A stretch of DNA of 14,394 bases from Crocinitomix sp. (lineage in GTDB: Bacteria > Bacteroidota > Bacteroidia > Flavobacteriales_D > Crocinitomicaceae): assembly GCA_020849935.1 (NCBI GenBank), contig JADZFJ010000085.1:1-14394 (forward strand). The letters run 5' to 3'. Positions 4,556 through 7,082 of this stretch are shown here, piece by piece. The notes under the pieces are model-generated. The model saw only the letters and a list, made by a program, of their open reading frames with translations. It made no database searches and was not told where the DNA came from. Position numbers and translations under genes: made by a program. The first letter of the stretch is position 1. The number at the start of each line of letters is the position of its first letter.

Positions 4556-5140
4556 ATGAAATTTCAACTAAAAAACATCCTTTGCCTAGCGATAACCTTG
4601 TTTTTATCAACATTAGGCAATGCACAAAATAGTACAGAGGAACTAAATGAAGAACTTCCGATTGGTTCAGATAAATCCGTGGTCAGCGGTTTTTACAATC
4701 GGTTTGACGTTGGAATTTTGGGAGGTAGCGCAGCCTCCCGATCTTTCAACATTGTCAATGGTTATCGAATTAATGCACATTGGAGTGCTGGGCTAGGATT
4801 AGGAGTCGAAGAATTTTATTGGAACCGATACATCCCTACTTATCTTGAAGGAAATTATAATCTCTTAAAAAAATCCACCACACCTTGGTTGAGTGTGATG
4901 GCGGGTTATGAAATTCCAACCGTAAGTTCCAATGGCGCCAACCGCGGCGGATTTACTTATGGAGGAAAAGTAGGTTTTAGTTATTTTATTGGAAAACATA
5001 TCGGAATCACTACATCCATCGGTTATCGATATGCGCATTTGCAAGCCGAAACATTTTGGACAGGTTGGGATTTGCCGCCAATAACAACGGTGACAGATAT
5101 TAACCGATACGAATTTCGGTTTGGGATGATATTTAAATAA
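4556..5140 (+). CDS. Small outer-membrane beta-barrel protein
   Basis: A complete 194-aa protein starting 9 bp after the LVIVD gene. Residues 1-23 are a signal peptide ending in GNA-Q. The mature part shows amphipathic strands with Gly and aromatic residues (RFDVGILGG, WSAGLGLGVEEFYW, PWLSVMAGYEIP, FTYGGKVGFSYFIG, IGITTSIGYRYAH) and ends YEFRFGMIFK, the aromatic-rich last strand expected of an outer-membrane barrel. The length suits an 8-strand barrel. It resembles the broad Bacteroidota 'outer membrane protein beta-barrel' group (PorT/OmpW-like), but I cannot name a closer family. It probably partners the LVIVD lipoprotein. A stem-loop follows 20 bp after the stop. Confidence 0.75.
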   Translation: MKFQLKNILCLAITLFLSTLGNAQNSTEELNEELPIGSDKSVVSGFYNRFDVGILGGSAASRSFNIVNGYRINAHWSAGLGLGVEEFYWNRYIPTYLEGNYNLLKKSTTPWLSVMAGYEIPTVSSNGANRGGFTYGGKVGFSYFIGKHIGITTSIGYRYAHLQAETFWTGWDLPPITTVTDINRYEFRFGMIFK

Positions 5141-5160
5141 GTAAATTTAGGGTTATAAAA

Positions 5161-5192
5161 GCAGAGAATTACGTTCGAAAGTAATTCTCTGC
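5161..5192 (+). promoter_or_regulatory. Perfect 12-bp stem-loop between OM barrel and sigma genes
   Basis: GCAGAGAATTAC (5161-5172) pairs perfectly with GTAATTCTCTGC (5181-5192) around the 8-nt loop GTTCGAAA. On the plus strand it is not followed by a T-run, only TATATGTT, while on the minus strand it is followed by TTTT. It lies 20 bp after the barrel gene and 29 bp before the proposed sigma start. It may be an intercistronic terminator or processing stem, or a leader structure controlling the sigma gene. No convincing promoter fits between it and 5222. Confidence 0.7.
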
Positions 5193-5221
5193 TATATGTT
5201 AACTTTCTAAAAACAAACAAG

Positions 5222-5806
5222 ATTTTAAAAGAAGAGACATATTCTGACCAAGAATTAATTCGAGCCTGTATTGATAAAAATCGGCAGGCTCAGAAGGTAT
5301 TATACACAAAATATGTCCAGTTAATAAAAGGGGTGTGTATGCGATACGCCGCTAATGAGGAGGAAGCGGAAGATTTGGTACAAGAAACATTTATTCAAGC
5401 TTTTAATAAGATTGATACGTTTAAAGGCGATGGCGCTTTGGGCGGTTGGATGCGAAAAATTGCCGTGAATAAATCCTTGGAACAATACCGAAAAAATAAA
5501 TCCTTGCAAAATACAAAAGAAGGATTGATTCTTTCCATTGACAATTCGCCCGCTGATTTTGGGGTGATTGAGCAATTAAGTTTAGCAGATTTGTTGGCAA
5601 TGATTCAACGCTTGCCAATTGGTTTTAGGACGGTATTTAACTTGTATGCAGTAGAGGGTTTTACTCACCAAGAAATTGCAGAAAATTTGGGAATAGCCGA
5701 AGGCACTTCTAAATCGCAATACAGCAGAGCAAAACAACAATTGGTGTCGTGGATAGAAGAGGAGAAGATGAATGAAATTAAAAGATTAGCACATGCAAAG
5801 AGATGA
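5222..5806 (+). CDS. ECF-type RNA polymerase sigma factor, probable ATT start
   Basis: An ECF sigma-70 factor of 194 aa if initiated at ATT 5222. From that start, residues about 10-42 (ELIRACIDKNRQAQ...VCMRYA) are region 2.1. EEEAEDLVQETFIQAFNKI is region 2.2, and GWMRKIAVNKSLEQYRK covers regions 2.3-2.4. After a linker, region 4 runs from RLPIGFRTVFNLY through the helix-turn-helix HQEIAENLGIAEGTSKSQYSRAK. A GTG at 5333 would delete region 2.1, so the start must lie upstream. The frame is open back to TAA 5156-5158 but holds no ATG, GTG or TTG before 5333. ATT at 5222 follows the A-rich AAAAACAAACAAG, like other starts here. The stop overlaps the next gene by 14 nt, which implies translational coupling to its membrane partner. 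It probably drives envelope genes, perhaps its own operon. Confidence 0.85.
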   Translation: MLKEETYSDQELIRACIDKNRQAQKVLYTKYVQLIKGVCMRYAANEEEAEDLVQETFIQAFNKIDTFKGDGALGGWMRKIAVNKSLEQYRKNKSLQNTKEGLILSIDNSPADFGVIEQLSLADLLAMIQRLPIGFRTVFNLYAVEGFTHQEIAENLGIAEGTSKSQYSRAKQQLVSWIEEEKMNEIKRLAHAKR

Positions 5807-7082
5807 GCAAAGAGGCGCTTTAGGCGATAGATTTGAAAGTTTTGGCGCTGAACCTTCGGCTGGTTTATGGGATTCTATTGCGGATTCGTTAGATCAGAAA
5901 AAAAGGCGTAAAGCAATTATTTGGTGGTGGTTAGGGAGTGGAATCGCCGCCATTGGCATCCTTTTTATTTTGTTCGTTCAACCAACAAAAGCAAATTTTG
6001 ATCAAACAGGTGACCATGCACGTTTGGTTTCCGATTCATCTCACCAAGATCAACAGTTATCCTTAGAAGCACCAACACGAACAAAAAAATTAACTGCGAA
6101 TAAATTAAATGCGAGCAATTTGAAATCACCTCAAAATAAGGTTTCATCTTTCGCAGCAAATCAAGGATCAGCTCCTAAATTGGATCCGAATAACCAACCA
6201 AACGGGCTTGGAACGAATCCTCCAAATCGCCCTGACATTGAAATTGGGAATGCAGTTACCATGGAGCAACAAACGATTGAGAAGGTGTCAAGAATTCCTT
6301 TGGTGGAGGTGGAAGAATTGTTAATTCCCAAAATGAATCCCGAGTTAATTATTGGAGATGTGGCCGAATTAGATCAGCATAAATGGGAACTAGGTTTTGG
6401 GGTGAGTACTTGGACGGTGTCAAATAGATTATTATCAGACATAAATTATCAAAACAATAATTCCGAATTAATTGTCGATTATGGAGTAGGGACAGCAGAT
6501 GTGCCAGAGATTTCCACCGATTTATTTGTAAAAGCCAATCGCCCACTTGGGTTTAATTTTTACGCGGGCTATCGTGTTCGTCCTCATTTGCGCATTACAT
6601 CTGGTTTACAATATGAAACCACAAATTATAGCATTCGCGATTCAGAAAACAAGGTCTATGATGCTGGGGCGTTTCAAGTGTATAACGAACTTTCGGTGGA
6701 TCAAAATTTGTATTATCGTCCAACCAAAATCACTTCAGTTTCAGTTCCTATAGGACTTGATTGGGATTTTTTCGGAACGCGGAGGATGAGGTTTGGAACA
6801 GGGTTGAGTATTTTGAATGAATTTCCAATCCTAGAAAAAAGTCCTACCGTTTCAGCTTTATCGTTTGATGGTGAGACAGTACCCACAAAAGCGAGGATTT
6901 CGGGTTACCATTTTGGTACTGGGATCAATCTCATTGCCTCTTATTTTTTAACCGAGCGATTCCGAATTCAATTAAACCCAGGCATAAGAGGGTATTGGTT
7001 TCAAAAAACAAATGCCTCTGATTTGATTCCGCATCGACGCTTGTGGTATGGCGGTTCGGTGAATTTGATTTGGAAGATTTAA
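5793..7082 (+). CDS. Sigma-linked membrane protein: cytoplasmic head, one TM helix, linker, beta-barrel-like C-terminus
   Basis: A complete 429-aa protein whose ATG lies inside the last 14 nt of the sigma gene. Residues 1-40 are a charged cytoplasmic head with FESFGAEPSAGLWDSIADSL followed by DQKKRRK, a motif I associate with Bacteroidota proteins encoded next to ECF sigma genes. Residues 41-62 (starting AIIWWWLG) are a transmembrane helix without a signal-peptidase site. Residues about 65-195 are low-complexity, rich in Asn, Gln, Pro and Lys. From about 198 to the end, strands such as WELGFGVSTWTV, FNFYAGYRV, LRITSGLQYETT, SVPIGLDWDFF and GGSVNLIWKI look like an outer-membrane barrel. The positive-inside rule places the head in the cytoplasm. 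It is probably the anti-sigma or sensor partner of the sigma factor. It has no zinc-binding anti-sigma (HxxxCxxC) or FecR motif. Confidence 0.75.
   Translation: MQRDEQRGALGDRFESFGAEPSAGLWDSIADSLDQKKRRKAIIWWWLGSGIAAIGILFILFVQPTKANFDQTGDHARLVSDSSHQDQQLSLEAPTRTKKLTANKLNASNLKSPQNKVSSFAANQGSAPKLDPNNQPNGLGTNPPNRPDIEIGNAVTMEQQTIEKVSRIPLVEVEELLIPKMNPELIIGDVAELDQHKWELGFGVSTWTVSNRLLSDINYQNNNSELIVDYGVGTADVPEISTDLFVKANRPLGFNFYAGYRVRPHLRITSGLQYETTNYSIRDSENKVYDAGAFQVYNELSVDQNLYYRPTKITSVSVPIGLDWDFFGTRRMRFGTGLSILNEFPILEKSPTVSALSFDGETVPTKARISGYHFGTGINLIASYFLTERFRIQLNPGIRGYWFQKTNASDLIPHRRLWYGGSVNLIWKI

Follow-up and report, generated by a model that had tools for sequence, protein, structure and literature searches.

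From which codon is the ECF sigma factor gene in this stretch of DNA (hereafter the window, 14,394 nucleotides in all) translated? The open frame runs from 5159 to 5806, and the first-pass annotation reported that it holds no ATG, GTG or TTG between the in-frame TAA at 5156-5158 and a GTG at 5333; our own reading of the frame likewise finds none. The same annotation proposed that the gene starts at an ATT upstream of this GTG. The features on which the question turns are as follows.

5156..5158, forward strand: in-frame TAA, the upstream closure of the sigma frame (sequence reading)
5209..5221, forward strand: A-rich, Kozak-like initiation context, with A at -3, -6, -12 and -13 of ATT 5222 (sequence reading)
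5222..5224, forward strand: ATT, the inferred sigma start codon (homologous position in a 29-locus clade, context peak, coding onset)
5222..5806, forward strand: ECF sigma factor gene, 194 aa counted from the ATT, stop TGA (Sigma70_r2, Sigma70_r4_2, sigma70-ECF TIGR02937)
5333..5335, forward strand: GTG, the first standard start codon, use of which would cut into region 2 (Pfam position)

The encoded protein has the make-up of an ECF sigma factor, with sigma regions 2 and 4 only in about 200 aa, and it matches PF04542 (5e-17), PF08281 (7e-15) and TIGR02937 (3e-25). Counted in the frame opened at 5159, the Pfam Sigma70_r2 match starts with residue 48, 11 codons 5' of GTG 5333, and a start at this GTG would therefore cut region 2; the claim that region 2 homology begins upstream of the GTG holds. 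Directly after ATT 5222 stands ILKEETYSDQELIRACIDKNRQAQ, which aligns with orthologues, as does the 194-residue product along its full length. The initiation-like context that had been noted around the ATT is present in full, with all four of the Kozak-like A's in place (4/4). Comparison with orthologues makes ATT 5222 a well-supported candidate for the sigma start, the grounds being its position, region 2.1, a peak in initiation context, purifying selection from this codon on and the lack of ATG at all 29 orthologous loci (0/29).

Orthologous loci and their start codons

We searched the window's genome and those of 59 relatives with the sigma protein, and 240 genomes of the window's family with a 13-row alignment (at most 13 candidates scored per genome, among the matches listed); 80 loci were kept from one scan of named genomes, and duplicates were then removed. 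In a tree of 124 ECF proteins, 29 loci form a clade (clade A; ultrafast bootstrap 97, SH-aLRT 95). All 29 come from the window's family, which its named members, among them Crocinitomix catalasitica ATCC 23190 (L040, sequence same as L017) and Lishizhenia tianjinensis (L043, sequence same as L018), place as Crocinitomicaceae. Across 399 sampled genomes of the order, no locus outside the family reaches the scores of the members, the lowest of which is 267 bits; the highest-scoring outsider, L246, has 252 bits and starts with ATG. Two of the ECF matches, L026 (G054:C17:19560-20099) and G033:C3:216647-217216, contain a stop inside the matched stretch; these are probably match ends that overrun the gene's own stop.

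Start codons were assigned by eye from the homologous position in the aligned codons, before initiation context was examined. They comprise ATT (12 loci), ATA (4), CTG (4), ATC (3), GTG (3), TTG (2) and GTT (1), five of the 29 loci thus having GTG or TTG and none having ATG. Independently of this manual choice, 22 of the 29 loci have none of ATG, GTG and TTG 5' of model position +5, so that at this limit the absence of a standard start is kept in the window and in 22/29 loci, and all 29 are free of ATG over the same stretch. An in-frame stop lies only 1-4 codons 5' of the assigned codon in 14/29 loci, which leaves almost no space there for another start. At some loci the choice of codon has alternatives: the start of L018 may be GTT, ACG or a TTG within the upstream gene, L016 and L134 each offer two adjacent AUH codons, L041 has an alternative TTG further upstream, and neighboring candidates exist in L125, L133, L135, L137-L139, L140, L141 and L143.

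Parsimony on the clade A tree requires at least 13 codon changes, with 5 changes between codon classes. A point against the explanation preferred below is that the third bases of the AUH starts (ATT:ATA:ATC, 12:4:3) match the usage of Ile codons in the gene bodies (207:84:68). Judged from the aligned codons, the trait that is kept in clade A is "not ATG" (ATT, ATA, ATC, CTG, GTG, TTG and perhaps GTT). The proposal that the gene starts at ATT is thus backed by comparison as to the site, while "ATT" was too narrow a description of what persists. Region 2.1, absence of which from orthologues would have spoken against the proposal, is conserved.

One probable exception to the lack of ATG came from database proteins. 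Entries from the JGI source appear to keep the raw first letter of the translation; the 24 group-A proteins from there comprise 16 truncated ones, 7 with L as first letter and one, the metagenomic P0029, with M at the start position, and P0029 is therefore likely a true ATG orthologue. It counts against an absolute avoidance of ATG, which seems to be tolerated in one lineage. P0004, P0005, P0013, P0020 and P0022 also begin with M, in entries whose source may convert the first letter, so that the codon is not readable from the protein.

As controls, 60 ECF paralogues were chosen from among the listed hits in genomes with a clade A member. ATG is available in 35 of them and only GTG or TTG in 24; one is without any standard start, against 22/29 clade A loci at the +5 limit (Fisher 8e-14, relatedness ignored). 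The lack of standard starts in clade A is beyond chance.

Initiation in Flavobacterium johnsoniae is described as favoring A at -3, later summed up as -3, -6, -12 and -13 (PMC6847099, PMC9976891). The assigned clade A codons carry on average 2.76 of these four A's, the highest value of all shifts from -12 to +12 (the next being 2.41 at +1). Shifting the codons upstream at random gives a mean of 1.74 and shuffling the positions one of 1.84, and in neither test did any of 20000 permutations reach the observed value. Predicted folding of the clade A initiation regions (-25..+25) ranges from -6.2 to 0 kcal/mol.

The overlapping partner gene and related sigma/partner pairs

Downstream of the sigma gene, and overlapping its end, lies a second gene.

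5793..7082, forward strand: partner gene, ATG start, 14-base overlap with the sigma gene; a Dma-like putative anti-sigma factor (start, hydropathy, Pfam)

Its product has an N-terminal part of ~40 aa, one TM helix (41-65), a tether and a probable C-terminal beta-barrel, the match to the latter being weak in the window (E 0.028, below the curated cut-off). Across clade A, an ATG start candidate is found at the N-terminus of the partner in 29/29 loci and overlaps the sigma stop in 27; by hydropathy, 25 of the 28 complete proteins have a TM helix close to the N-terminus (below threshold in L014, L129 and L131), and the families OMP_b-brl and OMP_b-brl_2 each match 9/28 partners at E <= 0.1, with a best value of 3e-07. 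The same domain order is described for the Dma anti-sigma factors of the Dma/Das dual membrane-spanning systems of Bacteroides, in which an ECF sigma gene adjoins the gene of a protein with an N-terminal domain, one TM helix, a long tether and a C-terminal beta-barrel (PMC13088901). The likeness to Dma drawn here is one of domain order and gene neighborhood. The main text of that report contains neither "start codon" nor "translation". By this analogy the partner is probably an anti-sigma factor, and its Dma-like domain order together with synteny suggests that it would bind the sigma factor.

Three further clades of sigma/partner pairs show other arrangements of start codons. In clade B (such as L002, L023, L028, L164 and L209), the sigma gene has ATG in 31/32 pairs and the partner GTG or TTG in 31/32, which is the mirror image of clade A (ATG start of the sigma gene, clade A vs clade B: Fisher 1e-16, relatedness ignored). 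Clade C (such as L003, L165, L171 and L182) combines sigma GTG with partner ATG (12/12 each), and clade D has sigma TTG in six of seven pairs and CTG in the other, with partner ATG in 7/7. The mean number of Kozak-like A's at the sigma start is 0.97 in clade B, 3.0 in C and 1.5 in D, and at the partner start it is 2.07 in A, 2.13 in B, 1.67 in C and 1.29 in D. Because the partner ATG of clade A thus has a poorer context than the sigma start (2.07 against 2.76), relative output is not readable from context.

Exactly one gene of the pair has ATG in 78/80 pairs of clades A-D (exceptions L036 and L037), a count that represents four clades and not 80 independent events, and for which the sigma starts had been seen before the clades were named. 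As a general rule, "exactly one of two genes has ATG" is rejected by 18 same-genome control pairs outside clades A-D, in which ATG starts one gene of the pair in 7 cases, both genes in 8 and neither in 3. Among 26 pairs chosen from outside these clades, the partner has ATG in 16.

Proposed initiation at a weak codon and the alternatives

The start codon of Escherichia coli infC is AUU, and initiation at this non-AUG AUH codon depends on discrimination by IF3, its own product, which makes the gene autoregulatory. The clade A sigma genes resemble it in their non-AUG AUH starts and differ in being another gene under another regulator. A search of the genome to which the window belongs (68% complete) gave no infC, and relatives were used instead. 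In all 8 of the same-genus genomes other than the window's, the infC frame has no ATG, GTG or TTG in its first 30 codons, and a GGAGG-like sequence lies upstream; among Flavobacteriales relatives the lack of standard codons holds for 13/19 frames, with ATA followed by GCA or GCT as the usual start candidate (12 of those 13).

infC loci of relatives: L145, L147, L150-L156, L158-L160, L162

Given these non-standard infC starts, above all the 8/8 within the genus, discrimination by IF3 in this lineage, and with it IF3 control of the sigma gene, would be plausible.

The closest precedent is the SigR/RsrA pair of Streptomyces, whose sigma factor we take to be of the ECF type. As described in PMC5472188, sigR has a GTC start behind an extensive, strong RBS and is overlapped by the anti-sigma gene rsrA; changing the GTC to ATG, GTG or TTG lets the sigma factor exceed its anti-sigma factor, and IF3 represses SigR. 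That study finds the GTC start in Streptomyces and no sign of it in other genera of Actinobacteria. The two systems share a non-canonical sigma start, a good initiation context with a poor codon and an overlapping anti-sigma gene, which in clade A is the presumed cognate partner with its canonical ATG in 29/29 loci. They differ in that SigR belongs to Actinobacteria, with GTC, SD-based initiation and a zinc-containing, redox-sensitive anti-sigma factor (PMC5472188), whereas the Crocinitomicaceae system, as read from sequence, belongs to one family of Bacteroidota and has AUH or NUG codons, an A-rich context and a transmembrane partner. A further parallel concerns Listeria rsbW, for which a start strength of ATG > ATA > ATT was proposed to alter the anti-sigma:sigma stoichiometry (PMC13068326); start-codon strength is there likewise tied to this ratio, but through selected mutations in a SigB antagonist gene and not through a conserved sigma start. 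Among the open-licence papers listed by our literature searches, none has a title or abstract describing such a sigma start in Bacteroidota.

Our preferred explanation, which we hold to be probable, is that the ECF sigma factor is translated from ATT 5222 with fMet and that the weak codon slows an IF3-dependent synthesis of sigma, leaving the anti-sigma factor in excess and the switch off, in a SigR/RsrA-like manner that evolved separately. A good ribosome-binding context combined with a codon that pairs imperfectly with the initiator tRNA would make sigma synthesis slow and dependent on the stringency of initiation, as set by IF3; the sigma factor would then be scarcer than its anti-sigma factor, and its release would come with an envelope signal or with less stringent initiation. 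For the start position, the non-AUG codon in 29/29 loci, the rich Kozak-like context, the onset of coding and the partner ATG in 29/29, the explanation draws on comparison; we infer that AUU initiates with fMet, that little sigma factor is made, that the anti-sigma factor is in excess and that IF3 exerts control, the dependence on IF3 by analogy. The idea of the first-pass annotation that such a sigma factor could be held low on purpose fits the conserved partner ATG and the SigR precedent, and an independent Bacteroidota version of the SigR logic, of separate evolutionary origin, appears to us the best reading.

The strongest rival is plain low expression, in which the non-AUG start would set a fixed, low sigma level and neither IF3 nor the state of translation would carry a signal. 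It shares most of its evidence with the preferred explanation, and we consider it a serious contender, if somewhat short of an even chance. Various weak starts, with GTG and TTG among them, replace one another at this codon, and the clade D sigma gene uses TTG; for SigR itself, the work described could not show that oxidative stress enhances translation from GTC (PMC5472188). The A-rich context, however, is kept (2.76 of 4), which would be odd if only low output were selected, and infC of the same genus is also without a standard start.

Translational coupling would make a strong start of its own unneeded, as ribosomes ending the upstream gene would reinitiate at the sigma gene. Two features of the window bear on this region.

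4556..5140, forward strand: upstream gene, outer-membrane-type protein with the tail NRYEFRFGMIFK (ORF, translation)
5160..5193, forward strand: perfect hairpin of 13 bp, in the gap that separates the upstream gene from the sigma gene (-20.3 kcal/mol, z -6.2)

The distance from the stop of the upstream frame to the sigma start runs from 1 to 140 nt across the 29 loci. It is at most 12 nt in nine (L012, L015, L018, L019, L020, L129, L134, L136 and L142), which favors coupling, but 23-140 nt in the other 20, and in the window the 81 nt include the stable hairpin; several loci, L009, L011 and L017 for example, are non-AUG despite a different gene directly upstream. With so variable a gap, 12 nt or less in only 9/29, coupling fails as a general account, and we judge it improbable.

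The hairpin itself occurs as a single copy in the genome, has no T-run behind it and is perhaps terminator-like. As a shared regulatory mechanism it was rejected: 22/29 loci have no stem of at least 9 pairs in -130..-1, and the stems of 6 others are different ones. In 14/29 loci, the window included, a tail similar to that of the upstream gene (NR, then an end containing E or D) is present at a distance of 1-90 nt upstream. In L009, L011 and L017 the sigma gene is immediately preceded by a frame for a small cysteine-containing protein, which in L009 and L011 appears Kunitz-like in pattern.

If instead an internal standard codon were the true start, the N-terminal segment would be untranslated. 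Among the 120 database relatives listed, 95 score as group A, and 62 of these are truncated, starting inside; moving the limit to model position +11 leaves 13/29 clade A loci without a standard codon, while in the other 16 a GTG or TTG is available, for the most part within region 2.1 at +7..+9. Yet the segment is under purifying selection, with pN/pS in 13 chosen pairs of 0.65 for the nine codons before the assigned start, 0.26 for codons +2..+12 and 0.23 for codons +2..+30 (in the eight closest pairs, 0.46, 0.21 and 0.21), most of it is also encoded by the ATG-started clade B paralogues, and the internal sites differ between members, as gene callers would yield. We regard an internal start as very unlikely. 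That gene callers would shorten the protein had been predicted, and they do: the public C. catalasitica protein has 167 aa and begins within region 2, against 193 aa if read from the ATT, and P0001, near-identical to the window protein (97%; 26 sequences, 9 contigs), is called from an internal codon. The window comes from a draft genome that is fragmented into 576 contigs and 68% complete, so that loss of an ATG through faulty sequencing or assembly is conceivable. The orthologues refute this and leave it almost no probability, since 28 further genomes, isolates included, are likewise without ATG at the same place; the internal call of P0001 also speaks against a local base error.

Start codons as a possible set-point of the switch

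Beyond the preferred explanation of a weak, IF3-dependent sigma start, a broader reading is possible, which we offer tentatively and would not yet call probable. The start codon may be an inherited set-point of the family's sigma/anti-sigma switches, with four clades each fixing which partner has AUG: the sigma gene non-AUG and the partner AUG in clade A, sigma AUG and partner GUG or UUG in B, sigma GUG and partner AUG in C, and sigma UUG or CUG and partner AUG in D. The AUH codons of clade A would then read IF3 stringency, so that a single codon integrates envelope stress and the state of translation, and this on ribosomes without use of Shine-Dalgarno pairing. Clade-specific and partly mirrored start codons make the setting of switch stoichiometry directly testable.

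In public annotation many of these sigma factors are truncated, that of C. catalasitica included, and studies of them would begin from the wrong protein. If the preferred explanation is true, the locus adds an independent example of a non-canonical start codon that throttles a sigma factor, from a phylum in which ribosomes make hardly any use of Shine-Dalgarno pairing, and selection would be shown to keep such starts across a family.
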